From Candidatus Aenigmatarchaeota archaeon (lineage in GTDB: Archaea; EX4484-52): a stretch of DNA of 63,412 bases. The DNA is taken from assembly GCA_023137195.1 (NCBI GenBank), contig JAGLPV010000044.1:1-63412 (forward strand), written 5' to 3'. The notes below the pieces were generated by a model that made no database searches, was not told the origin of the DNA, and saw nothing but the letters and a program-made list of their open reading frames with translations. Of this stretch, positions 6,685 through 51,309 are shown one piece after another. The translations under genes were made by a program, and so were the position numbers. How positions within the stretch are numbered: position 1 is the stretch's first letter; every line of letters starts with the position of its first letter.

Positions 6685-8049
6685 ATGATTGTTGCAAAAT
6701 TCGGAGGGAGTTCGCTGGCAGATACTCAAAGGATAATTAATGCTGCTAAAATTCTCCTGGAAATAAAGGGAGAAAGTGAAGTTGTGTCTGTTGTGTCTGC
6801 TGTGGGAGATACAACGGATTTTCTTATTGATGCGGTAAAAAATGCAGGAAAAATAGATATTGAAAAAACTGTTGATGAATTGTATTCTAGTCATCATAAG
6901 ATTCTTGGGCAAATCAAGACGACGATTGATGAAGAGGATGAAAAGAAATTAAAATCATTTTGCAGTTCGGTTAAACAGAGACTGGTTTTGGTGAATCAGC
7001 AGGGTATGGCAAAACCAGAGGATATCGACTATATTGGAGGGTTTGGAGAGAAGTTCTCTGCGTTTTTTTTGTCGTGTGCAATAGAGCAATTAGGTTTTAA
7101 GTCAGTTGTTCTCCAGGGGGATGATAATCTTATATTTACGGATGATAATTTTAATAATGCAGATGTTTTCTTTGACAGGACAAATGATGCTTTGAAAAAT
7201 AAGATTGCGCCTTTGTTGAAAGAAAATATTGTTGTTTTTACCGGCTTTGTCGGGACGACTTTAGATAATAGGACAACAACACTTGGGCGGGGTAGTTCTG
7301 ATTATATTGCATCTATTATTGGTGCGGCGCTGGATTCAGAAGAGATTCGAATTTATACAGATGTGGATGGAATAATGACAGCAGACCCGAGAATAGTGAA
7401 GAGAGCAAAGACAATATCAAAAATGGATTTCAATGAGATGAGCGAACTTGCAACGTTTGGCGCTCGTGTGCTTCATCCGAAGACAATTGAACCGGCAATG
7501 AAAAAAGATATCTGCGTGAAGGTGATTAATTCATTTAATCCGTCTTCTTTTACAGAAATTTTTAGAAAAAATACTAAAGGCAATACAACTGTAAAGGCAG
7601 TATCCTCAAATAGAGATATTACGATTCTTAATATTAATTCAACAAGGATGCTTAATAGTTTTGGTTTTATGGCAAAGGCATTTAATATTTTTCTGGAGGA
7701 AGAGGTTTCTGTTGACATGGTGTCAACTTCAGAGGTAAATATTTCTTTATCTATAAATAAATGTGTTTCGGAAGAAAAAGTACAAAAAGTAGTTGATAAA
7801 TTGAGTGTCTTTTCGTGCACTACTTTAGAAAAGAATAAGGCGATTATTTGTGTTATTGGAGAAGGGCTAAAGCACAGGCATGGCGTTGCAGGGAAAGTAT
7901 TCTCAATCATGGGAAATAATAAGGTCAATGTCGAGATGATTTCGCAAGGGGCGTCTGAGATAAATATAGCATTTGTTGTGGATAATAAAGATGAGAAAAA
8001 AGCAGTTATTGCTTTGCATGATGAATTGATAAATGGTTCAGACAATTAA
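6685..8049 (+). CDS. lysC: Aspartate kinase with tandem ACT domains
   Basis: This kinase phosphorylates L-aspartate to aspartyl-4-phosphate, the entry to lysine, threonine and methionine synthesis. The N-terminal motif VAKFGGSSLAD is diagnostic. The amino-acid kinase core continues with TGFVGTT...TTLGRGSSDY near 193-211, IYTDVDGIMTADPR near 232-245 and ARVLHPKTIEPA near 261. Two ACT domains occupy about residues 310-454 and would allow feedback inhibition. The gene follows hom by 20 bp and shares its transcript. The length of 454 is normal for archaeal/bacterial enzymes. A hairpin at 8048-8070 ends the unit. Confidence 0.92.
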   Translation: MIVAKFGGSSLADTQRIINAAKILLEIKGESEVVSVVSAVGDTTDFLIDAVKNAGKIDIEKTVDELYSSHHKILGQIKTTIDEEDEKKLKSFCSSVKQRLVLVNQQGMAKPEDIDYIGGFGEKFSAFFLSCAIEQLGFKSVVLQGDDNLIFTDDNFNNADVFFDRTNDALKNKIAPLLKENIVVFTGFVGTTLDNRTTTLGRGSSDYIASIIGAALDSEEIRIYTDVDGIMTADPRIVKRAKTISKMDFNEMSELATFGARVLHPKTIEPAMKKDICVKVINSFNPSSFTEIFRKNTKGNTTVKAVSSNRDITILNINSTRMLNSFGFMAKAFNIFLEEEVSVDMVSTSEVNISLSINKCVSEEKVQKVVDKLSVFSCTTLEKNKAIICVIGEGLKHRHGVAGKVFSIMGNNKVNVEMISQGASEINIAFVVDNKDEKKAVIALHDELINGSDN

Positions 8050-8072
8050 AAATCATGCGGTTTGATTTTTTT
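8048..8072. terminator. Terminator hairpin between convergent lysC and alaS
   Basis: AAAAATCA pairs with TGATTTTT around a 7-nt loop and runs into a T tract on the plus strand. Because A- and T-runs flank it on both sides it could serve both the lysC (plus) and alaS (minus) transcripts. Confidence 0.6.
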
Positions 8073-8133
8073 TACGGAATTGTCTAAACTTCTACAAAAG
8101 AGTGGGAGTTTATACACAATGAAAAAGGCACAT

Positions 8134-10551
8134 CTAATCACTGCGCTTGATTTCCTTCTTCATTTTTTTTATTTCTTTTCTTAGTTTTTTCCATTCTTCG
8201 AAGAATCTTTTTGCTGTTTTTGGAATATGCTCTTTTTCGACATTTAGGGTTTGGCAGCATTCATTTAATATTTCTTCCTGCTGGCGTATGTATTTTAGAG
8301 CGGAATTCCCGGAAGTGAAAATTAATCTTACCACACCGTCCTGTATTTTTTTTTGATCTATTATCTTGATGAATTTTAGTATTCCTGTCCTGTCAACATG
8401 TGTTCCGCCGCATGCTTCTATGTCGATGTCGCCTGTTTTTATGATTCTTAATTTTTTCTGAGGAATTGCGCCACCCTGGTATATTCCAAAGCCGTATTTT
8501 TCTTCTGCGATGTTTCTCATTATGGTGTCTATTTTAACAGGGATGTCTTTGTCGATTATGTTGTTTGCGATGTCCTCTATTTTTTGCAGTTGTTCTTTGG
8601 TCAGCAATTTGTAATGGGTGATATCCAGTCTTGCTTTAGATTCGTCTTTATAGGCACCACACTGCCAGATGTGTTTTCCAAGTACTGTTCTTGCTGCGGC
8701 GTTGATTATGTGCGTTGCGCTGTGGTTAAGGGTGAGGTTTTTTCTCCTGTTGAAATCTGTTTTCAGGCAAACATTTTGTTTTGGCTTAAGGGTTAATTTT
8801 TTGTCTAATACATGGACAGTGACTCCGTTTATGTTTAATGCATCCACGATGTTTGCCAGTTTGTTTTTATTTTCGTCATAGAGTTCTCCATTGTCGTGTT
8901 CCTGACCACCGGAAGTTGCGTAAATACAGGTCTTATTGCAGATAAGGAAATTGTTTTTGGAGATTAATACCTGGCTTTTTGTTTCTATATTGGTCCAGTC
9001 AAGTGCATAGGTTTTGATTGTTAATGGCATGTTTTTTATTAAGTTTAGCATATCAGGGTCTTTGACCTTTGTTTTAATAGCATCATTTATTTGCGATAAC
9101 CTGCCGTAGAATCCTTCCGGGATTGCGTTGATTAGCTTGTTCTTTTCGAGTTCCCTTAGGTCTATTCCTTTTGACTGGTAGAGGATAGATAGTTCTTTTT
9201 CTTCAATAGTTCTGTCTTTGTATTTTTTTTTCAACCGTGAGATTATCTCTTTTGTTTTTGTTTTCTGGGTTTTATATTTTTCTTCCTCGTTTTTTATGAT
9301 TTCTTCAATATCATCTAAATTTTGTTTTAGGGTAGGGTATTGACTTTTGAGGTAATCTTTGTGATTTTCCATGATTGAGAGGAAATCAATGTCTAAATCG
9401 TATTTTTCGGATAAGCCCATGGCGCGTCGGTAAAGTAGTCTTAGGTTGTATCCGCCGCCTGTGTTGGAGAACAAAGCCCCGTCGGATAGTGCCATTAGAA
9501 TAGTTCTGCTGTGGTCTAGTATAGCGTAGACAGCTGATTTTTTCAGGATGGTGGATTTTAATTGAGATTCATCAATGTTTATTTTTTTGGCTATTTCTCC
9601 CCATAAATGCGGTGAATTTTCATTTTCGTCGAAGTCAAATATTCCGCTGTAGGGCATGAAAGAAGACATTACTTCTTTTTCTTCATTGGAATAAGAAAAG
9701 AGACCCTTGTTTTTTAGGTAATTGATTTGTTTTTCAAATACTACATCGTAGCTTGTATTTTTGCTGTTGCCGTACCATGCGATTCGCTCCTGTCCAAGAC
9801 CCATGTCGAGTACGTTGATGTCCAAGGGTTCGGGTTTGCCACCAGTTATGTCGTATTTCATATAGACCTGGTTTGCCAGTTCCAGTCCCCCGGAGAAAAA
9901 TTCCATTGAAGCACCCATGTTTCCGCCGCCAGCCCAGCTGTCTTCGTGGATGATTAAATCCTCTGTTTTAAAGCCGATATCTACGAACCAGTCGAAGAGA
10001 TCGCAGAAATAATCTGCCTGCCTGTAATTTTTTTCATTTTCAAAAGCGTGTTGTCCTATCATTACAAAGCCGGTGTAATGCCTTCCGGTAATGCCAACAT
10101 TGTCGATGTCTGAAAATCTCAGGCAAAATTGAGGGACAGTCAATGGGTTTGCAGGGGGTTCTATTTCCCCGTTTACGACATATGGCTGGAAATCGGCGAT
10201 GGAGGCGATTGTAAAGTCAAGGTCTTCTCTCCATCTTGCTACGGTCGGGTATGCCCGTATAGGAGTATAATTTCTTTTTTTTAAGAATCCTGAAAATTTT
10301 TTCCAGACATCCAGGTATTCTATTGGTTTTATGGTTTTTTTGTTTATGAATTCATATTTTCCACGGCATTCTGCATCGCCACAGACATCAATATCTGAGT
10401 CAAGAGCCCAGAAATATGTTTTGCATACTTTGCATTGTTTCCTGGTAAAACCCTTGTTTTTCAGGACATCAACAGGATAATATTTGGACGGGCTTTTTTG
10501 TGCTTCTGTCTTAAATTGTTTTTTTATTTGTTTTTCAGCATTAGTTGCCAT
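8134..10551 (-). CDS. alaS: Alanyl-tRNA synthetase, archaeal type, lacking the C-Ala domain
   Basis: This synthetase charges tRNA-Ala and clears mischarged Ser/Gly. An archaeal N-terminal zinc ribbon (C40-x2-C43, C57 and C62 region) precedes the class II catalytic core, which includes the RFSDIDNVGITGRHYTGF stretch. The editing domain carries HSATH near residue 600 and CGGTH near 705, so its zinc site is intact. The protein stops at 805 residues in a lysine-rich helix (EEWKKLRKEIKKMKK...), where archaeal enzymes normally continue for about 100 more residues into the C-Ala oligomerisation domain. No further frame continues downstream. A TATA box (ATTTAAATA) about 25 bp before the ATG suggests a leaderless mRNA. 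Confidence 0.93.
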   Translation of the reverse strand: MATNAEKQIKKQFKTEAQKSPSKYYPVDVLKNKGFTRKQCKVCKTYFWALDSDIDVCGDAECRGKYEFINKKTIKPIEYLDVWKKFSGFLKKRNYTPIRAYPTVARWREDLDFTIASIADFQPYVVNGEIEPPANPLTVPQFCLRFSDIDNVGITGRHYTGFVMIGQHAFENEKNYRQADYFCDLFDWFVDIGFKTEDLIIHEDSWAGGGNMGASMEFFSGGLELANQVYMKYDITGGKPEPLDINVLDMGLGQERIAWYGNSKNTSYDVVFEKQINYLKNKGLFSYSNEEKEVMSSFMPYSGIFDFDENENSPHLWGEIAKKINIDESQLKSTILKKSAVYAILDHSRTILMALSDGALFSNTGGGYNLRLLYRRAMGLSEKYDLDIDFLSIMENHKDYLKSQYPTLKQNLDDIEEIIKNEEEKYKTQKTKTKEIISRLKKKYKDRTIEEKELSILYQSKGIDLRELEKNKLINAIPEGFYGRLSQINDAIKTKVKDPDMLNLIKNMPLTIKTYALDWTNIETKSQVLISKNNFLICNKTCIYATSGGQEHDNGELYDENKNKLANIVDALNINGVTVHVLDKKLTLKPKQNVCLKTDFNRRKNLTLNHSATHIINAAARTVLGKHIWQCGAYKDESKARLDITHYKLLTKEQLQKIEDIANNIIDKDIPVKIDTIMRNIAEEKYGFGIYQGGAIPQKKLRIIKTGDIDIEACGGTHVDRTGILKFIKIIDQKKIQDGVVRLIFTSGNSALKYIRQQEEILNECCQTLNVEKEHIPKTAKRFFEEWKKLRKEIKKMKKEIKRSD

Positions 10552-10625
10552 AAAATCATAAAATATAGGATTGAATATTTATTTAAATATTGGTATTTGC
10601 TAATTGAAGAGTTTTGTTGAATATG

Positions 10626-10634
10626 TTTATATAT
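10626..10634 (+). promoter_or_regulatory. TATA box of the secretion ATPase gene
   Basis: TTTATATAT is centred about 24 bp before the ATG at 10654. With the usual archaeal TATA-to-start distance, transcription would begin at or next to the ATG, so the mRNA is probably leaderless. Confidence 0.6.
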
Positions 10635-10653
10635 TTTATGTTCTTTAATATAT

Positions 10654-12588
10654 ATGTCTCATTTTACCGATGTAATTAAGAAAATGAAAAGGAAGAAGGA
10701 TGAAGATGAAAAGACAACGGTAGTTGGAAGAAGATCAATGTTCAATACTATTGGTTTGATGAAAAAGGCATCTGTCTTGTTGAAGGAAAAGGAAGAAAGG
10801 GAAAAACAGGAAAAAATGCCCCGTATAAATGTGTGTGGTCAGGATTCGGGTTATTTGCCTTCCGGGTACGGAGGTTCATTTGGAGGCGGAGCAAATAGAG
10901 GGGCGGCAGGCGCAACCAGAAAACCAAAATATGATAAGGCATTTTCTATAAGTATGAATGAATTAATACCTGATGAAATCAAGTATAAATCTAATATCAG
11001 AAAAAAGGAGATGAACAGGATTTTTGTTGATTTCGACAAGAAGGGCAAAGATAAGGAAACTATAAAATCTATTAATGAGAGTTATGCGTTGAAACAAAGG
11101 CATTTGGAGGATGTTTTGTCGATAAATGCATATTGTAATATAAAATTTGATGAAAGTGCGAACTGTCTTATGTACAATGTTTTTGAGCCAACATTGAGCC
11201 CGGATGACGAAAAAGAGATAGTAAAAATAAAGAAATATTTTGAGGAAATGATATCTATTCATTTTGATGGGTTAAGGACTACTACTGCGATTGAATTTGT
11301 CAAGAAAACGCTCATGTCATGCATTGAAAAATTTGGTTTGAATATATCGAAGGAAAAAATAGAATTATACAAATATTATTTATTCCGGGATTTTATCGGT
11401 CTTGAATCAGTAGAGCCCTTGCTAAATGACCCGCATATTGAAGATATAAGTTGTGATGGTATAAATATTCCTATTTTTGTTTTTCACAGGAATCCTAAAT
11501 ATGGCTCTCTCCAGACAAATATTGTTTTTAAATCAAAGAAACAGCTGGATGTTTTTGTTATGAAACTTGCCCAGAGATGCGGCAAGACAGTGTCTGTGGC
11601 AAATCCATATTTTGACGGTGCATTGAATGATGGATCAAGAATCCAGGCGACACTGGCAACAGATGTTGCAACACGTGGTTCGAATTTTACAATAAGAAAA
11701 TTTCTTAAAGATCCTATCACACCGATTTTTTTATTGAAGTATAAGACCATAGATATTTATACTCTGGCGTATTTATGGCTTTTGATAGAGTACAATACGT
11801 CTGTTCTTGTGGTGGGCGGTACAGCATCAGGCAAGACATCTTTATTGAATGCGTTATCTTTGTTTATCCGTCCCGAGCAAAAGATTATTTCCATTGAGGA
11901 TACAGCAGAGCTTCAGTTGTCTCATCCTCACTGGGTGGCGGAAGTGTCAAGGGAAGGTTTTGAGACTGTTGCAGGGCATGAAAAAAAAGTCGGCGAAGTG
12001 GCGATGATGGACCTGCTTAAGGAAGCATTAAGGCAAAGACCAGATTATATTCTTGTGGGAGAAGTAAGGGGAGAAGAAGCTACAATATTGTTTCAGGCAA
12101 TGGCGACAGGGCATAGTGGTATGGCTACAATCCACGCAGATACGATGGAGCGGCTTGTAGACAGGATTACTTCAAAACCATTGAGCATTCCTGTTGCTCT
12201 TTTAGAAACTCTGGATATGATTGTTTTTATAAAGCGGCTAAGATACAAGGATAATTTTGTAAGAAGAATAAGCAATATATATGAAATAGAGGGTTATGAT
12301 AAGCCAAACAATACAATCCTCTCGAGGAAAACGTTTGAGTGGGATGCTGTCGAGGATGTGATTAGTCCAAAGGAAGAATCTATATTACTGGGGAATATAT
12401 ATACTCAAAAAGGGATAGACAAGGAAACAATACAGAATGAGATTAAGAAGAGGGCCAGAGTGTTGGGATACATGGAAAAGAAAAACATAACCTATTATAA
12501 AGATGTAGCAAAAATAATAAATAAGTACTATATTGATTCCGATGCTTTGATAGATAAGATTAAGTCTATTGAAGAAGGGAGCGAATAG
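10654..12588 (+). CDS. Type II/IV secretion system ATPase (ArlI/TadA/GspE-like)
   Basis: This cytoplasmic hexameric motor powers assembly of type IV pilus-like filaments or secretion. The C-terminal half has Walker A GGTASGKTS near residue 388, an Asp box IEDTAEL near 413, Walker B-like ILVGEVRGEEA near 466 and the His box GHSGMATIHADT near 484. The first 250 residues are a charged N-terminal region with a glycine-rich stretch near 70-90. At 644 residues it is longer than ArlI and resembles the archaeal TadA-like ATPases. Normally a TadC/ArlJ membrane partner is adjacent; here none follows, and a candidate partner lies 48 kb away at 60770. tRNA-Leu starts 9 bp after the stop. Confidence 0.85.
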   Translation: MSHFTDVIKKMKRKKDEDEKTTVVGRRSMFNTIGLMKKASVLLKEKEEREKQEKMPRINVCGQDSGYLPSGYGGSFGGGANRGAAGATRKPKYDKAFSISMNELIPDEIKYKSNIRKKEMNRIFVDFDKKGKDKETIKSINESYALKQRHLEDVLSINAYCNIKFDESANCLMYNVFEPTLSPDDEKEIVKIKKYFEEMISIHFDGLRTTTAIEFVKKTLMSCIEKFGLNISKEKIELYKYYLFRDFIGLESVEPLLNDPHIEDISCDGINIPIFVFHRNPKYGSLQTNIVFKSKKQLDVFVMKLAQRCGKTVSVANPYFDGALNDGSRIQATLATDVATRGSNFTIRKFLKDPITPIFLLKYKTIDIYTLAYLWLLIEYNTSVLVVGGTASGKTSLLNALSLFIRPEQKIISIEDTAELQLSHPHWVAEVSREGFETVAGHEKKVGEVAMMDLLKEALRQRPDYILVGEVRGEEATILFQAMATGHSGMATIHADTMERLVDRITSKPLSIPVALLETLDMIVFIKRLRYKDNFVRRISNIYEIEGYDKPNNTILSRKTFEWDAVEDVISPKEESILLGNIYTQKGIDKETIQNEIKKRARVLGYMEKKNITYYKDVAKIINKYYIDSDALIDKIKSIEEGSE

Positions 12589-15605: not shown

Positions 15606-15634
15606 ACACAACTGATTCGAAAAAACAGTTGTGT
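15606..15634. repeat. 9-bp perfect hairpin at the start of nreA
   Basis: ACACAACTG pairs with CAGTTGTGT across an 11-nt loop. The right arm overlaps a GTG codon (15631) in the nreA frame and ends 11 bp before the ATG at 15646. It could be an operator or could mask translation. It also argues that the ATG is the true start. Confidence 0.5.
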
Positions 15635-15645
15635 TTGAATACATT

Positions 15646-16890
15646 ATGCCTTACTCTAAAAACTGTCTTATCTGCAAAGGGAGCAATCCTCAAAAGTATT
15701 GCAACAGGAAATTCTGCCCGTTGATTTCAAAATCAAAGATTTATGACAATGTCAAGAAAGGCATCAAAAAAGAGTCGTTTAGCGGGAATGCTCCTGCTCC
15801 TTTTATTGGTCGTTATAATTATCCGAATATCAATGTGGGGATTTTATCGACTACTTCTGAAGATGAGGATTCATGGGAATATGATTTTCCGAGGCACTGG
15901 GCGCAAAGTGATTATGATGAAGAGAAGGTAATGGGGTTTCGGACAGGTCTTGTCAATTCAAGGGCGCAGTCGTCGGTGAAGTCGGATGAAAAAATAGTGG
16001 AGCTTGCTAGGGAGGTTGCAATGGCTCTCGTTGCTCCTGAAATGGAGATAAACCTTCAAAAAGTGCCGTCTTTTTCATTTAATCTGGATTCTTTTGCTGC
16101 ACCTACTGGTCCTGTTGCGGATATGAAGAGTGCAGAGATTACTTCTAATATAAAGACAAGTCATAAGATTGAGAGAGTTATTGACGATACTGATTTGAAG
16201 GCTAATTTGGCGATGAATGAGTTGTATGAGAAAAATTTTGATGAAAATACAATAAGCAAAATTCTTAGTGTGGGGAGTTTGGGTGTTGGGAGAAGGCGGA
16301 AGCTTGTCCCTACCCGATGGTCGATAACTGCAACAGATGATATGCTGTGTAAGAAAATAATGTCCGGGATAAAGAATAATGATTTGGTTAGTGATTATAG
16401 GATGTATTCGGGTAATTATATGGGTAATTACTATTACATAATGTTTTTGCCTTCCTGCTGGTCTTTTGAATTGTTTGAGACTTATGCTTCAAATGCGTCG
16501 TTTAATAAAACAGGTATGTCTCAATATACGACAGATTATGAAAATTATAATGGGAGGAAAGACTATGCAGCGGAGTGTACAGGAGGGTATTATGCTGTTC
16601 GGTTTCCTGTGGCAGAGAAGCTGAAGTGGTTGAAGCGGCAGGCAGGGGTGCTTATATTTCGGTTTATTACTGATGAATATACTATGCCTCTTGGGGTTTG
16701 GGTGTGTCGTGAAAGTGCAAGAAGGGCGTTGAAGAGTAAGCCGATTTCTTTTGATTCTAAAGAACAGATGCTGAATTATGCAGGGAAAGTTGCAAAGATG
16801 AAGTTTGGGTATGATGTTGGCGGGTTGGTTGGGAAGAGTAGGTTGTTGAAGGAAATGAAAACGCAGAGTCGGTTGAGTGAATGGATGTAG
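15646..16890 (+). CDS. nreA: NreA-like PCNA-interacting DNA repair protein
   Basis: This belongs to the archaeal Nre family (DUF650/DUF651), implicated in repair of alkylation/crosslink damage through binding the sliding clamp. An N-terminal four-cysteine cluster C-x2-C...C-x4-C (CLICKG, YC, FCPL) fits the family zinc finger. The middle contains RAQSSVKSDEKIVELARE and, later, RKLVPTRWSITATDD and FLPSCWSFELFE, conserved family segments. The protein ends in QSRLSEWM, a C-terminal PIP-like motif (Q-x-x-L-x-x-W-aromatic/aliphatic) for PCNA binding. I chose the ATG at 15646 rather than the GTG at 15631, because the latter lies in a hairpin arm. Confidence 0.8.
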   Translation: MPYSKNCLICKGSNPQKYCNRKFCPLISKSKIYDNVKKGIKKESFSGNAPAPFIGRYNYPNINVGILSTTSEDEDSWEYDFPRHWAQSDYDEEKVMGFRTGLVNSRAQSSVKSDEKIVELAREVAMALVAPEMEINLQKVPSFSFNLDSFAAPTGPVADMKSAEITSNIKTSHKIERVIDDTDLKANLAMNELYEKNFDENTISKILSVGSLGVGRRRKLVPTRWSITATDDMLCKKIMSGIKNNDLVSDYRMYSGNYMGNYYYIMFLPSCWSFELFETYASNASFNKTGMSQYTTDYENYNGRKDYAAECTGGYYAVRFPVAEKLKWLKRQAGVLIFRFITDEYTMPLGVWVCRESARRALKSKPISFDSKEQMLNYAGKVAKMKFGYDVGGLVGKSRLLKEMKTQSRLSEWM

Positions 16891-17003: not shown

Positions 17004-17081
17004 TGTTAGCCGACCCGACGACTAGATGGGGGAGAGCACAGCGGGGTCGAGCACCGTAGCCGAAGGCGAGGAGCGGAGAAG

Positions 17082-17095
17082 TTTTCTTACTGCCG
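17082..17095 (+). repeat. Left inverted repeat flanking the restriction-modification module
   Basis: TTTTCTTACTGCCG here matches the reverse complement of 20394-20407 exactly. An additional 7-bp word, GTTAGCC, lies outside it at 17005-17011 and is inverted at 20412-20418. Spacing between the two words differs on the two sides. Confidence 0.5.
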
Positions 17096-17199: not shown

Positions 17200-17210
17200 T
17201 TTATATATTA
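17200..17210 (+). promoter_or_regulatory. TATA box of the GHKL ATPase-methyltransferase operon
   Basis: TTTATATATTA is centred about 27 bp before the ATG at 17232. The position predicts a leaderless mRNA for the restriction-modification pair. Confidence 0.55.
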
Positions 17211-17231: not shown

Positions 17232-19205
17232 ATGGTCAATTATAAACTTTCTATTAGCATGAGTATACTAGAAAATTTAGGACTTAATTTGTATAGTAGC
17301 ATCCCAGCAGTGATTGCAGAAGCTATTGCTAATTCATATGATGCGGATGCTGAACGAGTTGATATTGATATTGACCCTAAAACTAAAACAATAACCATTA
17401 CTGATGACGGGCATGGAATGACTGAGAAAGAATGTAATGACAGATATCTTCTCGTAGGATATCATAGAAGAGATGTAGGCGAAATTGAAACTCCAAAACA
17501 TCATCGACCTGTTATGGGTAGGAAAGGAATTGGCAAGTTATCTCTTTTTTCCATAGCTAAAAATATTGAAATCCATACCATCAAATTAGATAAAGATGAA
17601 AAGAAAATTGTTGAGAAAAATGGATTTATTATGGATAGGGACACCATAATTGATGATATTAAAAAAGATGGAGTTAAAGAGAGTAATGGCTGTGATTTGA
17701 CCTCCGTAGATCCAAAAAATATTGAAATTGAGAAAGGTACTAAGCTAATTTTAACAAAGTTGCAAAAGGATATCTCCAAAACAGAATTATTTCTGAGAAA
17801 AAGATTAGCAAGAAAATTTATTATTCTTGGGAAAAAATATAAATTCAGAGTTTATATAAATGGAAAAGAAATTGCATTGAGTGATAGAGATTATTTCTCA
17901 AAAATCCAGTATTTGTGGTTTTTTGGAGATCATGGAAAAAAATGTGTGAAAGAATGCAAGAAATTAGATAATAAGAAAGAGATTTCTAGTGAAATTGTTT
18001 TAGCAGATGGTACAAAATGTGCTGTGGGGGGGTGGATTGGCACAGTTCATGAAAGGAGTAATTTAGAAGAAGGAAATAATACAATAATAATTCATTCAAG
18101 AGGAAAATCTATTCATGACAATTTACTTACAAATATTGATAATAGTGGATTTGTTACTAAATATTTAATTGGAGAAATTAAGGCGGATTTTTTAGATGAT
18201 GACAATAAGGAAGATATTACTACAAGTGATAGGCAGAAGATTCAAGAAAACAATGAAAGATTTGAAAAGATAAAGGAATTTGTTGAAGAAATTATTAAAA
18301 AGATTAGGGTTCAATGGCAATCTTGGCGTGCAGAAGATGCTACTATAAAAGCTTGTCAAATCCCAGCAATTAAAAAATGGTTTGGATCATTAAAGGGAGA
18401 TAATAAAAAATATGCTAAACAATTGTTTGGAAAAATAGATAGGTTTCCAACTGAGGATATCACTTATAAAAAAGAAATATATAAAAATTCAATCATAGCA
18501 TTTCAAACATTGGCGATAAGAGATAATTTAAGCAAATTGGATAATATAAATTCCTCCGAACATATAGAAACTTTTATTAATATATTGGGTGAAATGGATC
18601 AACTTGAATCAGCTCATTATTATGAAATAATCCGAAGTCGTATAGGAATATTGAAAAAATTTGAAAATTTGGTTGATGGTAAGGTAAAAGAAAAAGTATT
18701 GCAAAAATATATTTTTAATCATCTTTGGTTGTTAAATCAAACTTGGGAAAGAGCCAATGTTATAAGTAAGCGTATGGAAGAAACGATTATAAAAGGCATT
18801 CGGAATATAAAGTTCACAGAAAAAGAAAAATTAGCAAGGGCTGATATTCAGTATAAAACTGTTGCTGGAAAGCATGTTATTATTGAATTAAAAAAATATG
18901 ATGCTTATGTAAATTTACATGATTTACAAAAGCAAGTTAACAAATATAAAAATATTTTACTTAAAATATTGAAAGACGTATATCATATTAAAAATCCAGA
19001 AATAGAAATTATATGTCTCTTGGGGAAAAAACCAGGACCTTTAGAAATGACTGAGAAAGAAATTAAAGAACATCTTAAATTAGAAGACGCTAGATATATT
19101 ACTTATGATGAACTATTAGAAGAAGTGACTATGGTTTATGGAAGTTATATTGAAAAAAATAAGGAATTAATTGAAATTCAAAATCTTATTGGAGATCTAG
19201 TATGA
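17232..19205 (+). CDS. MORC/MutL-like GHKL ATPase fused to a PD-(D/E)xK-like nuclease domain
   Basis: The N-terminal GHKL ATPase has the N-box EAIANSYDADA (30-40), the G1 box DDGHGM (58-63) and the G2 box GRKGIGK (96-102). These fit the MORC/MutL-like ATPases predicted by comparative genomics to work in restriction-modification operons. A linker and alpha-helical middle follow. Near residues 537-553, ADIQYKTVAGKHVIIELKK shows D537, E551 and K553 spaced as in PD-(D/E)xK nucleases. The protein is thus a predicted ATP-driven, dimer-clamping endonuclease. Its stop overlaps the ATG of the methyltransferase gene (ATGA). The sequence looks more AT-rich than neighbouring housekeeping genes, which fits horizontal transfer. 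Confidence 0.75.
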   Translation: MVNYKLSISMSILENLGLNLYSSIPAVIAEAIANSYDADAERVDIDIDPKTKTITITDDGHGMTEKECNDRYLLVGYHRRDVGEIETPKHHRPVMGRKGIGKLSLFSIAKNIEIHTIKLDKDEKKIVEKNGFIMDRDTIIDDIKKDGVKESNGCDLTSVDPKNIEIEKGTKLILTKLQKDISKTELFLRKRLARKFIILGKKYKFRVYINGKEIALSDRDYFSKIQYLWFFGDHGKKCVKECKKLDNKKEISSEIVLADGTKCAVGGWIGTVHERSNLEEGNNTIIIHSRGKSIHDNLLTNIDNSGFVTKYLIGEIKADFLDDDNKEDITTSDRQKIQENNERFEKIKEFVEEIIKKIRVQWQSWRAEDATIKACQIPAIKKWFGSLKGDNKKYAKQLFGKIDRFPTEDITYKKEIYKNSIIAFQTLAIRDNLSKLDNINSSEHIETFINILGEMDQLESAHYYEIIRSRIGILKKFENLVDGKVKEKVLQKYIFNHLWLLNQTWERANVISKRMEETIIKGIRNIKFTEKEKLARADIQYKTVAGKHVIIELKKYDAYVNLHDLQKQVNKYKNILLKILKDVYHIKNPEIEIICLLGKKPGPLEMTEKEIKEHLKLEDARYITYDELLEEVTMVYGSYIEKNKELIEIQNLIGDLV

Positions 19206-20146
19206 GATTTATAGACTTATTTGCGGGAATAGGTGGATTTAGGATAGCTTTAGAAAGCTTCGGACATTCTTGTGTTTTTTCTTCCGAAATTGATAAATTT
19301 GCAAGACAAACATATTCTGCAAATTTTGGTCATACCCCTCATGGAGACATCAAAAAAATAAAAGTGAATCATATCCCTAAACATGAAATACTCTGTGCTG
19401 GATTTCCTTGTCAGCCATTTAGTATTTCAGGTAAACAAAAAGGATTTAATGATATAAGGGGGACTCTTTTTTTTGATATAATTAGAATTACCAAATACCA
19501 CCAACCCAAATTGATTCTATTAGAAAATGTAAAAAATCTTGCATCCCATGATAACACTAAGACCTTAAATAAGATTATATCTAAATTAGATTATGTAGGA
19601 TATGATGTATTTCACAAAATTTTAAAATCTAGTGATTTTGGAGTTCCCCAAGCAAGAGTACGTATTTATTTTGTATGTTTTAGAAAAGATTTAAGTGTTA
19701 AAAAGTTTATATTCCCAAAATCTAAAAATAGAAATGTGTTCTTAAACTCGATAATTGATAAAACTGAGACATCTCCAGAATTTTTAATTAAAAGAGATGA
19801 TATTAAAATTTTTCCTAAAAAACTTCACACTAATATAACGGGTCTTATAAAAATTGGGGCAATAAATAAAGGTCGGCAAGGGGAAAGAATATATAGTATT
19901 GAAGGTTATGCTCCAACCCTCTCTGCAACAGGAGGAGGGCCTGCTGGAAAAACTGGAGCATACTTGATAAACAATAGAATAAGAAAGCTAACTCCCAGGG
20001 AATGTGCAAGTATACAAGGTTATCCTAAAAAATTTAAAATTCCAGTATCCAATAATCAATCATATAAACAGTTTGGAAACTCTATTTCTATTCCGGTTGT
20101 GAAAGCTATATTAAATGAAATTCAAAAAATCCCACATATTTATTAG
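19202..20146 (+). CDS. dcm: DNA (cytosine-5) methyltransferase
   Basis: This is a SAM-dependent C5-cytosine methylase. Motif I DLFAGIGGFRIAL lies at 5-17, the catalytic GFPCQPFS motif IV at 67-74 (C70), ENV motif VI at 108-110, QARVRIYFV motif VIII near 152-160, and the closing QFGNSISIPV motif X. The target-recognition region between motifs VIII and IX (about 165-245) is short, so the specificity should be a simple site. At 314 residues it matches small type II methylases. The start overlaps the GHKL ATPase-nuclease stop by 4 bp, so the two are a coupled restriction-modification pair. No separate specificity or Vsr gene was seen. Confidence 0.93.
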   Translation: MRFIDLFAGIGGFRIALESFGHSCVFSSEIDKFARQTYSANFGHTPHGDIKKIKVNHIPKHEILCAGFPCQPFSISGKQKGFNDIRGTLFFDIIRITKYHQPKLILLENVKNLASHDNTKTLNKIISKLDYVGYDVFHKILKSSDFGVPQARVRIYFVCFRKDLSVKKFIFPKSKNRNVFLNSIIDKTETSPEFLIKRDDIKIFPKKLHTNITGLIKIGAINKGRQGERIYSIEGYAPTLSATGGGPAGKTGAYLINNRIRKLTPRECASIQGYPKKFKIPVSNNQSYKQFGNSISIPVVKAILNEIQKIPHIY

Positions 20147-20462
20147 ATTCAAAAATTACATTTAGAAAACATATTTTGTAAAGCAGAACGTATTAAAAGT
20201 TTATAAATGAAATATTTTTTTAAGACCGCTTTTTTTTGTTTTCTCTCTCTAAAGTAAGCAAAAATTTAGGCGAATGTAATGAGCCGCTAAATTAATGTTA
20301 TGTTTAGTAGCTTTGCTATTGAAAAACCGTTTTTCTCTTTCTTGATTTAACGAAGGTGCCCATCTCGTTTGATTCTCGGTTTACTTCCATGGGCGGCAGT
20401 AAGAAAATTTTGGCTAACACCTATTGGGCGAATTGTTTGCACTAAAACATAAAAATCCAAAC
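20147..20462. other. Gene-free right border of the restriction-modification module
   Basis: No coding region is supported here. GCCCAT (20358-20363) and ATGGGC (20389-20394) pair. The 14-bp CGGCAGTAAGAAAA (20394-20407) is the exact inverted copy of 17082-17095, and GGCTAAC (20412-20418) inverts GTTAGCC at 17005-17011. These paired words flank the two-gene module like terminal inverted repeats. Confidence 0.5.
20394..20407 (-). repeat. Right inverted repeat flanking the restriction-modification module
   Basis: CGGCAGTAAGAAAA is the exact inverted partner of 17082-17095. The module between them carries only the GHKL ATPase-nuclease and methyltransferase genes. Confidence 0.5.
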
Positions 20463-20638: not shown

Positions 20639-21706
20639 TTAAGAATATTTATTTAGAATTTTATTAAGATAAGTGATAAATTCCTTGGTGTCTAAAAAAT
20701 AATTAGGATATGCTTTTTTTAAGTCTACTGCTGTATCTGCTCCAACTAAAACAACATCATATTCTTTTTTACCATAAATTTTTTTCTCAGCATTTGCATA
20801 ATCTTTTATTGCTTTCTCTTCTTGTCGTTTCGAATATGCAGAGATTGTTAATCTTTCCAGGACAGTATCTAATTCTAATAAAAAGAAATGTAAATTTTTT
20901 TTGTTTTTTAAATCATCAAAAAGTTTGATTGATTTGGTCCAACTTTCCATTTTAGTTCTTACATTCAATTCTTTTTCTTTTTCTTTAATTAACAAATAAA
21001 GTTCTTTCTCATCATCCAGGGTATTTGGTATTGAGGGGCAACCTTCTATTTTTGCAAATGCAGAACTCATTAATTTAAAAAAAACTTTCCATTTTTCTTC
21101 CCCTTCATTTGATTTTATTGCCTGACCTGTAAAAAAACCAACTGTTTCAACTGCCGTCGCCCAGATATGTTGTAATTTTGATCTAATTTGCACTTCAATT
21201 AATAAGCCATTATATATTTTCTTTCCTTTATCGCTGTTATACTTGTAAATCAAATGTATGCTTCGGTATCCATCTTTTTTTGGATTAGAGATATAATCTT
21301 TTTCATTTACTTTTTTATGTTTCAAATCCCCTTTAATATAATGGTCGTGGTAAAGTTTTTTTGCTAATTGAACATTTGACATTACTACCCTACATCCAGC
21401 AATATCCTGCATTTGTGTAAGTTTCATCGTTGCTTTATTGTCGCCGTATTTCCTATTGAGTTTTTTTATAATTGATGGAACACGCTTAAGTCTTTGAGCA
21501 GATAATGCATTTTTATCTATTTTTTCAGAAACTCGTTTTAACCTTTTTTTAAAAATATGCATGGGATAGCTATGTGCTGCTCTCCAATTACTCAATATTT
21601 CTAAAGCACAATTTTTATTTTCTTCTGATTCTTTATTATTACGCAAAATAATTCCTGCAGAATCAGTTTTTGACTTTGAAAATTCTTTAGGATTTATTAT
21701 CTTCAT
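20639..21706 (-). CDS. RelA/SpoT-domain (p)ppGpp synthetase-like protein
   Basis: This protein has a nucleotidyltransferase domain of the RelA/SpoT family. Signature segments are RVPSIIKKLNRK, MQDIAGCRVVM near residues 104-114, NPKKDGYRSIHLIYKY near 145-160 and LIEVQIRSKLQHIWATAVE near 175-193; the catalytic E-x-Q is intact. There is no HD hydrolase, TGS or ACT domain, so it resembles a stand-alone small alarmone synthetase or toxic SAS, with a C-terminal region (about 230-355) of unknown role. Archaea generally lack RelA/SpoT, so transfer is likely. The gene is bracketed by two copies of the atpD 3' end, and phased repeats lie upstream. No antitoxin gene is obvious. Confidence 0.85.
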   Translation of the reverse strand: MKIINPKEFSKSKTDSAGIILRNNKESEENKNCALEILSNWRAAHSYPMHIFKKRLKRVSEKIDKNALSAQRLKRVPSIIKKLNRKYGDNKATMKLTQMQDIAGCRVVMSNVQLAKKLYHDHYIKGDLKHKKVNEKDYISNPKKDGYRSIHLIYKYNSDKGKKIYNGLLIEVQIRSKLQHIWATAVETVGFFTGQAIKSNEGEEKWKVFFKLMSSAFAKIEGCPSIPNTLDDEKELYLLIKEKEKELNVRTKMESWTKSIKLFDDLKNKKNLHFFLLELDTVLERLTISAYSKRQEEKAIKDYANAEKKIYGKKEYDVVLVGADTAVDLKKAYPNYFLDTKEFITYLNKILNKYS

Positions 21707-21740: not shown

Positions 21741-21918
21741 TCCAATTGCGCAGTAACGATTTAAAATCGATGTCAAGTTGCGCGGTTTGCGGAAATTGCT
21801 AAAAATGGCTAAAATGGGCTCCAGATGGCATTATTATGGTAAAAGTTAATATTGGCGATTATTCTAATGTCGAGTTGCGCGGTTTGTAGAAATAACTTGT
21901 GTCGAGTTGCGCGGTTTT
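21741..21918. repeat. Phased TGTCGAGTTGCGCGGTTT repeats upstream of the alarmone synthetase
   Basis: Full copies begin at 21771, 21868 and 21900, with TGTC(A/G)AGTTGCGCGGTTT nearly invariant. A part-copy CCAATTGCGCAGT begins at 21742. Copies are 32 bp apart (part-copy to first, second to third), and 97 bp separate the first and second, close to three 32-bp steps. The first two share extended similarity for about 30 bp. Three helical turns of spacing suggest binding sites for one protein on the same DNA face. There are no regular spacers, so it is not a CRISPR array. Confidence 0.6.
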
Positions 21919-21978
21919 GAAAAAAATTATTTTAAATGATAGAAGGGAGAGTTTAGTTCTATTTATAGCAAAACACAT

Positions 21979-23428: not shown

Positions 23429-24811
23429 TTATTCCTCCTTGATTTGCTTGTAATATTTCTTTTTTGTGTCTGTTGATATTCTTGTCAGTTCATCCGAGGG
23501 AATAGTTCCCAAGAGTTCCCATGCGAGGGAAAGCGTTTGTTCTATACTCCTGTTTTCATTAAAGCCCTGCTTTACAAATCTTTCTTCAAACAGGTCTGCG
23601 AATTTAAGCAGTCTCTTGTCTTTATCACTTAGAGATTCTTCACCCACAATTGCGACCAGACCTCTTAAGTCTTTTCCTTCTGCGTAATTTGCGTAAAGCT
23701 GGTCTGAAACTGCTTTGTGATCATCTCTTGTTTTTGTTGCTCCTATACCGGAGTTCATAAGCCGTGAGAGGCTTAGAAGAACGTCGATGTTCGGGTAAAT
23801 GCCTTTCCTGTGGAGTTCCCTGTCCAGTACCACTTGTCCTTCTGTAATATAGCCCGTTAGGTCAGGGATAGGGTGGGTAATATCATCGCCGGGCATTGTT
23901 AATATCGGCATCTGGGTTACACTTCCTTTTTTGCCCTTTATCATTCCTGCTCTTTCGTAGATGGATGCAAGGTCGGTATACATGTATCCGGGGTATCCTC
24001 GTCTACCTGGTATTTCTTCTCTTGCGGCACTCATCTGTCTTAAGGATTCACAGTAATTTGTAATGTCTGTCAATATTACTAGTACGTGCATGTCTTTTTC
24101 ATAGGCAAGATATTCTGCGGCGGTCAGAGCCATTCTTGGGGTGACCAGTCTTTCTACCGCGGGGTCGTTTGCCAGGTTTAAAAATACAACTGAACGCTTT
24201 AGGGCGCCTGTGCTTTCGAATTCTTTGATAAATTTATGGGCTTCCTCGTTGGTGATTCCCATCGCGGCAAAGACTACTGCAAATTCTTCTTTCTGGTCTT
24301 TTACCTTTGCCTGTCTTGCAATCTGTAGCGCGATATCGTTGTGAGGCAGTCCGCTTGCAGAGAAGATAGGTAGTTTTTGTCCTCTTACAAGAGTATTCAT
24401 GGTATCTATTGTTGAGATTCCTGTCTGTATAAAATCAGCAGGAGATGTTCTGGAATATGGGTTTATCGGGTCTCCGTTGATGTCCATTTCTTTTTCTGCA
24501 ATTATTTCCGGTCCTTTGTCCATAGGCAGTCCCCTACCGTTAAAGATTCTTCCAAGTATATTATTGGAAAGACCGAATTTCATTGTTTCGCCTAAGAATC
24601 TTATTGATGCGGTTTTGTCGATTCCACTTGTTCCTTCAAAACTCTGGATTACAACCAAATCCTTGGAAGTGTCCAAGACCTGTCCTAGTCTTATGTCGTC
24701 TTTTCCTACTTTTATCTTTACGATTTCACCATAGCTCACCAAGTGTGTTTTTTCTACAAATAAAAGATTTCCTTTTATGTTTTTTATTGTTTTATATTCC
24801 TTGTAACTCAT
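23429..24811 (-). CDS. atpB: A-type ATP synthase subunit B
   Basis: This is the non-catalytic, regulatory nucleotide-binding subunit of the A1 head, alternating with A in the hexamer. The sequence shows the family's N-terminal beta barrel, [28 protein letters not shown] (degenerate P-loop region, lacking GKT), [13 protein letters not shown], and [16 protein letters not shown] near 340-355, a B-subunit hallmark. The 460 residues are typical. It lies 9 bp after atpA and 12 bp before the carbonic anhydrase gene. It is soluble and membrane-peripheral. Confidence 0.95.
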
Positions 24812-24820
24812 AATATCACC

Positions 24821-26584
24821 TTATATATTTTCAACCAGCTCCTTTAGTTCTGCTTCTATCTGTTTTTTTACGTTACTAAGCACTTTTTGGTAATCTTCAT
24901 CAAATTTAGCCTCGGATATCTTGTTTCTTGACTCAATCGAGACTATGTCCTTTGCCCGCACTCCCTTGTCCAGGGTTTCGTAGGCTTTGTCTGCTACCCA
25001 CAGGATTGTTTCGAGTATTGCTTTTGTCTTGTCCAGACTGCTGAATGCATCTGTTTTGTGGAAGGCATTCTGCTGTAGGAAGAATTCTCTTAAAAGACGT
25101 GCAACTTCTAATGTAACCTGCTGTTTTTCCGGTAATGCGTCACTTCCGACCAGTTGTACAAGTTCCTGGAGTTTTTCTTCTTCCTGCAATATTTTCATGG
25201 ACTCGTCGTTTAGTTTACTCCAGTCTGAGGATACATTTTTATTGTACCATGGGTCCAGTGTATTTTTATAGAGACTGTAGGATTGCAGCCAGTTTATTGA
25301 AGGGTAATGTCTCCTGCTTGAAAGCTTTGCATCCAGAGCCCAGAACACTTTTACGATACGCAGTGTGTTTTGTGTGACCGGTTCGCTGAAATCTCCTCCC
25401 GGAGGGGATACTGCGCCGATTACTGTAACACTTCCTACTTCATCATTTAGGCTGACACATCGTCCTGCTCTTTCATAAAATTCTGCGAGTTTTGAACCAA
25501 GGTAAGGAGGATATCCTTCTTCTCCCGGCATTTCTTCTAATCTTGAAGAGATTTCTCTCATTGATTCTGCCCAACGGCTGGTTGAGTCAGCCATCATAGA
25601 TACATCATATCCCATATCCCTGAAATATTCTGCTATTGTAATTCCTGTGTATACGCTTGCCTCTCTTGCCGCTACCGGCATGTTTGAGGTATTTGCAATC
25701 AAAACTGTCCTGTTCATCAATGGCTTTCCTGTTTTTGGGTCTTCGAGTTTAGGGAATTCTGTCAATACTTCTGTCATCTCATTTCCACGCTCTCCGCACC
25801 CGATGTAAACTACTATTTCTGCATCGGAGTATTTTGCCAAAGATTGTTGGGTTACTGTTTTTCCTGCTCCGAAAGGTCCAGGGATTGCTGCTGTTCCTCC
25901 TTTTGCCAAGGGAAAAAGAGCATCTAAAATTCTCATTCCTGTAATTAATGGTATTTCAGGAGGTAATTTGTCTTTTGTCGGACGAGGGTGCCTGATTGGC
26001 CATCTTTGCATCAATGTTATTTTTTCTCCGCTTTCCAGTTCACAAACAACATCTTCTACTTTGAATTTTCCTTTGTTTATTGATTTGACTGTTCCTTTTA
26101 TTTTTGGAGGAACCATTACTTTGTGGACTATTGTTTCTGTTTCCTGCACAGTTCCGATTATTGCTCCTCCTTCAACAGCATCTCCATTTTTGACTGTCGG
26201 GACAAAATCCCATTCTTTTTCTCTGTTCAGGGAGTTTACGACAGCTCCTCTTTTTATGAATTTTCCTGTCTTTTTTTCAAGTTCAGGTAGAGGTCTTTGG
26301 ATTCCGTCATAGATGGATTTCAACAAGCCCGGTCCTAATTCTACACTCAATGGGAGTCCTGTGTTTTCCACTACTTCTCCCGGCTGGATGCCGCTGGTCT
26401 CTTCATAAACCTGTATAATTGTTTTATCTTCTATTATCTGGATGACTTCACCGATAAGTTTTTCCTTACCTACTCTTACAACATCATGCATTCTTGCGCT
26501 TAAGCCCTGCGCTGTAATAACAGGTCCGCTTATCCTGTAAATCTCACCAATTTGTTTTGTTTCCATAGTTCTCTCCTCAATCAT
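24821..26584 (-). CDS. atpA: A-type ATP synthase catalytic subunit A
   Basis: This is the catalytic subunit of the A1 head. The P-loop GPFGAGKT lies near residue 238, followed by [15 protein letters not shown] and [29 protein letters not shown], the family signature. The 'non-homologous region' typical of A/V-type A subunits is present between about 115 and 190. At 587 residues it is full length. The ATG overlaps the stop of atpF by 4 bp. No intein interrupts the P-loop, as it does in some archaea. Confidence 0.96.
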
Positions 26585-50103: not shown

Positions 50104-51309
50104 TTAATTAATTTTCCTTTTTATTCTTACTAGCGACAGAAACATTAGTCCCATAGACAGGAATATTGTCGGGACTTCAGGGATAGGAAGGTAATCTTGG
50201 CTATTTCCACCAGGTATATTGTATGGTATATCTCCAAAACCATCTCCGTCTGTATCCGTAAAATTATAGTCTGAATAGTAATTTCCTCCTATGTATGGTC
50301 CGCCAATTATATTTGGTCCTGTTGAATTTGTTGTGTTCCAGAAGTTATTTCCGGAATCATAGGCATTGTTTGTGTTGTTCATGTAATTGTTGTATAGTTG
50401 ATTACTGTTTGAAGAATACAAATAGATGCCGTAATTATTATTTGAGTTTGCAGTGTTGGAGGAAAGAATGTTGTTGCTCGAATACCACGAGGAGATGCCA
50501 TGGTTATTATTTGAATTTGCTGTGTTGCATGAAAGAATGGTGTTATCTGAATACCACAAGTAGATGCCGTGGTAATTATTTGAGTTTACAGCGTTGTCTG
50601 AGAGGGCATTGTTGTCAGAATGAAACAAGTAGATGCCACCATAATTATTTAATCCCTCGTAATTATTTGAGTTTGCGGTGTTATTTAGAATGTTATTGTT
50701 ATCTGAATACTCCATGCGGATACCCTGGTATTTATTTGAGTTTACTGCGTTGCCTGAAAGAATGTTGTTGCTTGAAGAATATAGATGGATGCCTTCACCG
50801 TTTAGGTTTACAGTGTTATTTATGATACTATTGTCATTGGCGGAAGAATATGCTCGTATACCATAAGCATTATTTAATACGGTGTTTGTTGAAACAGTAT
50901 TATTGTTTGAATTCATTATATGGATGCCATACATATTATGAAATGCATTGTTATTTAGAAGCAGGTTGTTGTTTGCCTTTTTTAGATAAATTCCATAATA
51001 CCAATCTGTTACAACACAGTTCTTTATAGTAATATTTGTATTGGATTGCGAATTTCGATTTATGTAAATTCCAGAGCTACTGGTCGAATCCACTCCATCA
51101 ATTATATTATTTTTACAGTCTAAAACAACATTGTCTGCTGTTATGTTTATGCATGTTGCATCAGTGGAATTGGTTATGTTCAATCTTAGATTATATACCC
51201 CGCTTGTGCTTATTGTTGTGCATGAACCGATAAGATGGATAGCATTAGCATTTTGCACAAGCAAAAGGCATGTTATCAAAACAGTTATTGTAATTGTTGT
51301 TTTTTTCAT
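50104..51309 (-). CDS. NosD-like right-handed beta-helix surface protein with PEVPT tail (2)
   Basis: This is a paralog of the protein at 48732, with about 401 residues. It has a signal peptide (KKTTITITVLITCLLLVQNANA), then about 300 residues of NosD-type beta-helix rich in the repeated unit ANSNN-x-GIYLWYSDNN, and the tail IPEVPTIFLSMGLMFLSLVRIKRKIN. The helix repeats are more regular than in the neighbour, consistent with recent expansion. The ATG at 51309 begins 2 bp after the stop of the upstream protease-like gene, so the two are likely co-transcribed. An in-frame start 12 bp upstream overlaps that stop. Confidence 0.8.
   Translation of the reverse strand: MKKTTITITVLITCLLLVQNANAIHLIGSCTTISTSGVYNLRLNITNSTDATCINITADNVVLDCKNNIIDGVDSTSSSGIYINRNSQSNTNITIKNCVVTDWYYGIYLKKANNNLLLNNNAFHNMYGIHIMNSNNNTVSTNTVLNNAYGIRAYSSANDNSIINNTVNLNGEGIHLYSSSNNILSGNAVNSNKYQGIRMEYSDNNNILNNTANSNNYEGLNNYGGIYLFHSDNNALSDNAVNSNNYHGIYLWYSDNTILSCNTANSNNNHGISSWYSSNNILSSNTANSNNNYGIYLYSSNSNQLYNNYMNNTNNAYDSGNNFWNTTNSTGPNIIGGPYIGGNYYSDYNFTDTDGDGFGDIPYNIPGGNSQDYLPIPEVPTIFLSMGLMFLSLVRIKRKIN

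Follow-up and report, generated by a model that had tools for sequence, protein, structure and literature searches.

Which DNA site does a restriction nuclease police when the methylase encoded beside it is of a class that its relatives do not usually keep? This question is raised by two adjacent genes of an Aenigmatarchaeota archaeon, found in a stretch of 63,412 nucleotides (contig JAGLPV010000044.1) that was analysed as a whole and is called the window here. Both genes lie on the plus strand and begin with ATG: R (17232..19205, 657 aa) encodes an ATPase-nuclease of the paraMORC3 or BbrUII/HgiDII family (recognized by NCBIfam NF050001, PADLOC and PF13589), and M (19202..20146, 314 aa) encodes a C5-cytosine methylase of the M.HhaI type, the stop codon of R and the start codon of M sharing 4 bp (ATGA). 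An earlier, sequence-only reading had given the same coordinates and overlap, and had proposed a restriction-modification (R-M) system with a MORC-like ATPase-nuclease. The proposal is supported here, but systems of this kind have already been described (paraMORC3, PMC2292703; NF050001). As judged from the sequences, the departure is in the partner M, which is of the HhaI/GCGC class and not of the usual HgiDII type, a point that the earlier reading had missed.

The cassette and its surroundings

A candidate archaeal TATA box, TTTATATA, was read from the sequence at 17200..17207 (plus strand), about 28 nt 5' of the R start codon; if it is used, a leaderless R transcript would follow. A scan for sigma-70 promoters gave nothing better than shuffled sequences. 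The two genes are bracketed by an inverted repeat of 17 nt (left arm 17079..17095, right arm 20394..20410), the arms of which are complementary at 16 of 17 positions, and its 14-nt core has no further occurrence in the window or in the stretches of the genome that were retrieved. The GC content of the cassette is 29%, versus 36% for the window. The cassette, with boundaries that we infer, looks like a horizontal acquisition. Its neighbours are a gene for an archaeal Nre protein (15631-16890) and, based on a reading of the open reading frames, genes for V/A-type ATPase subunits (23429-26584), and the gene content of the contig is archaeal.

Two other repeats were recognized in the window. Three near-identical copies of GTCGAGTTGCGCGGTTT occur at 21760-21920, just upstream of a RelA/SpoT-like gene (20639-21706, minus strand), and these may possibly be regulatory sites. 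A tandem repeat with a unit of 69 bp, in 2.5 copies and with 81% matches, is found at 50424-50596.

An ATPase-nuclease of the paraMORC3 family

R scored 674.6 bits against the NCBIfam model NF050001 ('BbrUII/HgiDII family restriction enzyme'; equivalog cut-off, 550), and also matched the Type II REase model of PADLOC (REase_II, 1e-87) and Pfam HATPase_c_3 (PF13589, E = 2e-18). An identity as MutL was rejected, with 32 bits against an equivalog cut-off of 180 and a match confined to residues 26-68. Relatives of R were gathered from genomes, viral contigs, plasmids and phages, and amounted to 137 in total, of which 115 remained after dereplication with a score of at least 300 bits. The paraMORC3 family was defined as GHKL and S5 ATPases with a C-terminal RE-fold domain bearing the residues E-D-ExK, and its genes are linked to C5 methylases, patchy in distribution and laterally mobile (Iyer et al. 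2008, PMC2292703). All of these domains are recognized in R. Its ATP-binding motifs, which the sequence-only reading had already pointed out, are intact and genuine: the N box (E30, N34 and D37; 17319..17345) and the G1 box (D58-x-G60-x-G62; 17403..17417) are invariant in all 137 relatives, as are the four residues G96, K98, G99 and G101 of the G2 box or ATP lid (MGRKGIGKL; 17514..17540), all three boxes being on the plus strand. A structure model of R made from 89 aligned sequences had a mean pLDDT of 87.8 (34.5 for the single-sequence model), and its best structural neighbours by Foldseek were the ATPases TRAP1/Hsp90, MORC3 and MORC2; about 400 residues were aligned to the Hsp90 and MORC ATPase modules, which we take to cover the S5 fold as well. 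By its sequence, R is a member of the paraMORC3 family, for which the NCBI name is BbrUII/HgiDII restriction enzymes.

The nuclease domain occupies residues ~483-657 at the C-terminus (18678..19202, plus strand) and carries the E-D-ExK residues as E487 (18690..18692), D538 (18843..18845) and E552-L-K554 (18885..18893). The sequence-only reading had recognized this motif as D537 and E551-x-K553, so the motif itself was real, but the numbers were one too low and the fourth acidic residue, E487, was not mentioned. That reading had also held that a lack of conservation in homologues would refute it; E487, D538 and K554 are present in 115 of the 115 dereplicated relatives, and position 552 is E in 114 and D in one, which is far above chance. 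The PD-(D/E)xK fold that it had proposed is borne out by profile matches in the family and by the model. When the nuclease domains of family members were scanned alone, 33 of 44 matched SduA_C (best 9e-7), 18 of 44 PDDEXK_4, 10 of 44 NucS_C and eight of 44 HSDR_N, and R of the window itself matched the Shedu model (SduA_C) weakly, with an E-value of 0.009 that is below Pfam's cut-off. In the model, the C-terminal third consists of a helix (483-496), three strands (515-518, 536-542 and 548-553), a second helix (562-582) and a further strand (591-597), and this predicted order of helices and strands is that expected of PD-(D/E)xK enzymes. The top 50 Foldseek matches of the whole R chain were dominated by the ATPase part and did not address the nuclease fold, and a search of the PDB with a profile of the nuclease domain yielded no meaningful relative.

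The methylase and its re-pairing

M matched Pfam DNA_methylase (PF00145) over its full length (E = 5e-99), and is thus the complete C5-cytosine methylase that had been claimed earlier. Its alignment with M.HhaI (PDB 10mh) gave 348 bits over residues 1-304 with 50% identity, the target recognition domain included, and places the catalytic cysteine at C70 (C81 of M.HhaI; 19409..19411, plus strand) and the target recognition loops, QGE-x10-TL-x3-GGG, at 19877..19939 (plus strand). The residues of M.HhaI that we take to contact the bases (Q237, E239, R240, S252 and G257, with S87 and K89) are all kept in M, and the only change among the contact residues is Y254 to T. HinP1I cleaves GCGC, and the best plasmid relative of M, in Spiroplasma citri (~55-56% identity), adjoins an endonuclease of the R.HinP1I family (PF11463, 251 bits). 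In GCGC enzymes, a QGE signature stands ten residues before a TL motif, and G257 is critical, whereas S252 and Y254 can be changed (PMC2413257). From the homology to M.HhaI, the presence of QGE and G257 and the position of the plasmid relative beside an R.HinP1I-family enzyme, M very probably methylates GCGC.

In contrast to this, the methylases of GTCGAC specificity bear the signature YGRx8T(LIM)x9GRxGH (PMC2413257), which is absent from M. Against the model of the HgiDII-type methylases M scored 76 bits (family median, 504), and it is only 22-23% identical to the HgiDII-type partner methylases; M.HgiDII is the characterised GTCGAC enzyme (cited in PMC5867850). So, although R is a full-length equivalog of the BbrUII/HgiDII enzymes (GTCGAC; NF050001), its partner lacks the GTCGAC signature and has the GCGC signature QGE, and GTCGAC specificity is therefore not expected. 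With regard to the paraMORC3 enzymes as described (PMC2292703), R is alike in its GHKL and S5 ATPase, its C-terminal E-D-ExK RE-fold and its linkage to a C5 methylase, but the linked methylase of the window is of the HhaI type, and downstream, instead of the HgiDII type.

The C5 methylases adjacent to the 115 dereplicated relatives of R are of the HgiDII type in 86 cases and of the HhaI type in only three, and 26 relatives have none within 400 bases. Before dereplication, the exact GTCGAC signature was found beside 87 of the 137; in the remaining 17 relatives with a methylase, most methylases are one residue off this signature, and those of one Lachnospiraceae group are of a third kind. Only three other loci with R and a HhaI-type M were found, one in Nanoarchaeota and two in Clostridia. 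The Nanoarchaeota pair has the gene order of the window, with 62% identity in R and 83% in M (dN/dS versus the window copy, ~0.21 for R and ~0.10 for M), and it was recognized in that one genome only among the 371 searched in its group. In the two clostridial pairs (L099 and L338), M is upstream of R. The archaeal HhaI-paired enzymes are nested in the R tree among HgiDII-paired ones, and the clostridial enzyme of L099 is in a different HgiDII-paired clade (L338 being outside the tree). Inferred from these sequences, at least two methylase swaps are forced by supported branches. To our knowledge, this re-pairing of a paraMORC3 nuclease with GCGC-type methylases, found twice, has no earlier description (REBASE being outside the scope of the comparison). 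Three positions of R (36 Y, 304 N and 355 I) are common to the four GCGC-paired enzymes, against a null mean of 0.03. These were rejected as specificity residues, since all three are residues of AT-rich codons in AT-rich genomes, for which composition suffices, and among the residues common to the four enzymes none could be tied to a change of site.

The family also occurs in other settings. The paraMORC3 nucleases of one clade lie within DISARM loci, without a C5 methylase, and their neighbours there are DrmMI, DrmA, DrmB and a PifA-like ATPase. A Cenarchaeum chromosome (OY282369.1) contains at least six divergent paraMORC3 genes, none of which has an adjacent cognate methylase. A pair of paraMORC3 and Dcm is carried as cargo by a P2-like phage (Escherichia phage PhiR44_1), between the replication and portal genes, and many viral contigs likewise carry such a pair.

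Site specificity and alternative explanations

On balance, the pair is probably an active two-gene, Type II-like R-M system, in which M marks GCGC and R cuts DNA with unmarked GCGC. M, being of the M.HhaI/M.HinP1I type, would methylate the inner cytosine of GCGC in the host DNA. R would be a homodimeric GHKL ATPase that closes on DNA upon ATP binding (the ATP dependence and the dimer clamp are presumed by analogy) and would cut via its C-terminal PD-(D/E)xK domain with E487, D538, E552 and K554. Its target would be unmethylated GCGC, or a longer palindrome containing GCGC, such as incoming DNA of a phage or plasmid would carry. This implies that a nuclease lineage normally accompanied by a GTCGAC methylase has been re-paired here with a GCGC methylase and that the specificity of R has changed too. 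Compared with the HhaI and HinP1I systems (GCGC), M is homologous over its full length, but the place of R.HinP1I is taken by an unrelated ATPase-nuclease; a search of the host for R.HinP1I gave no match, and a control search likewise matched nowhere.

The cleavage site of R presumably matches the site of M. No HgiDII-type methylase was found elsewhere in the host assembly (84.8% complete, such that a protecting methylase could be missing), and yet GTCGAC occurs at 50 sites in 0.99 Mb of the host, so the site of R should be one that M protects. The same numbers make it very unlikely that R still cuts GTCGAC, with the neighbouring M not its guardian and R silent or held off by something else. 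In favour of such an enzyme, most family-conserved positions are retained in R, and the host has mildly fewer GTCGAC sites than expected (O/E 0.76); however, cleavage of 50 unprotected sites would be lethal, and the pairing of R with a HhaI-type M recurs in other genomes. Counts of sites in the host (0.99 Mb) and in three relatives showed no signal of GCGC or GTCGAC avoidance. The O/E of GCGC in the host is 0.94, which counts against a GCGC-cutting R, but missing avoidance is uninformative for a recent acquisition, and the site counts support GCGC specificity neither way. GCGC is absent inside the cassette, as expected from composition and codon shuffles. The lack of avoidance, the low GC content of the cassette (29% versus 36%) and the flanking inverted repeat would also fit a decaying horizontal acquisition without activity, of which the methylase may persist alone. 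We consider this highly improbable, since both frames are intact, every catalytic residue is present and the dN/dS values versus the Nanoarchaeota copy are well below 1.

R might instead have no site specificity alone and act as an ATP-gated sensor of some feature of invading DNA, with M linked but functionally separate, or an addiction methylase. The model for this is VcSduA, a Shedu protein of the reported type I-D, which has no methylase, defends by direct restriction and loses phage defence with either E27A or K557A, so that both sites matter (PMC12137116). R is like VcSduA in its GHKL ATPase and PD-(D/E)xK domain but differs in being paired with a methylase; 26 of the 115 paraMORC3 relatives lack an adjacent C5 methylase, some of them inside DISARM loci. 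However, R is above the equivalog cut-off of a restriction-enzyme family whose methylases bear the GTCGAC signature, its gene overlaps M by 4 bp and the pair is kept together in distant genomes, and such a sensor seems unlikely. Somewhat bolder, and decidedly unlikely in our estimate, is that paraMORC3 has no fixed recognition domain through which it reads its target, and that its specificity can readily be changed or is conferred by the partner methylase. One chassis would then fit the GTCGAC, GCGC and DISARM types and would police the site marked by the methylase at hand.

Other sites and enzymes of this lineage were recorded besides. The host genome has strong deficits of GGCC (O/E 0.12) and GATC (O/E 0.27), GGCC is avoided also in two genomes of the same genus, and both deficits are common to most relatives; they suggest an old R-M pressure in the lineage and, being so widely shared, were rejected as a trace of the present pair. 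A second GHKL protein of at least 725 aa, whose gene overlaps that of a C5 methylase (399 aa), is encoded on another contig of the same genome (~7300-10760). It has HATPase domains at both ends and matches no nuclease model, and is possibly a paraMORC-type R-M component with a histidine-kinase-like C-terminus.

A restriction enzyme and its methylase must agree on their site, and a re-pairing such as that of the window offers a natural experiment in the change of specificity. Our results suggest that the paraMORC3 family can change the DNA site that it polices. With two independent re-pairings and many sisters of the GTCGAC type available for comparison, it is directly testable where a paraMORC3 enzyme reads its DNA, and whether the site is set by the ATPase or by its partner, in a family that has been little studied.
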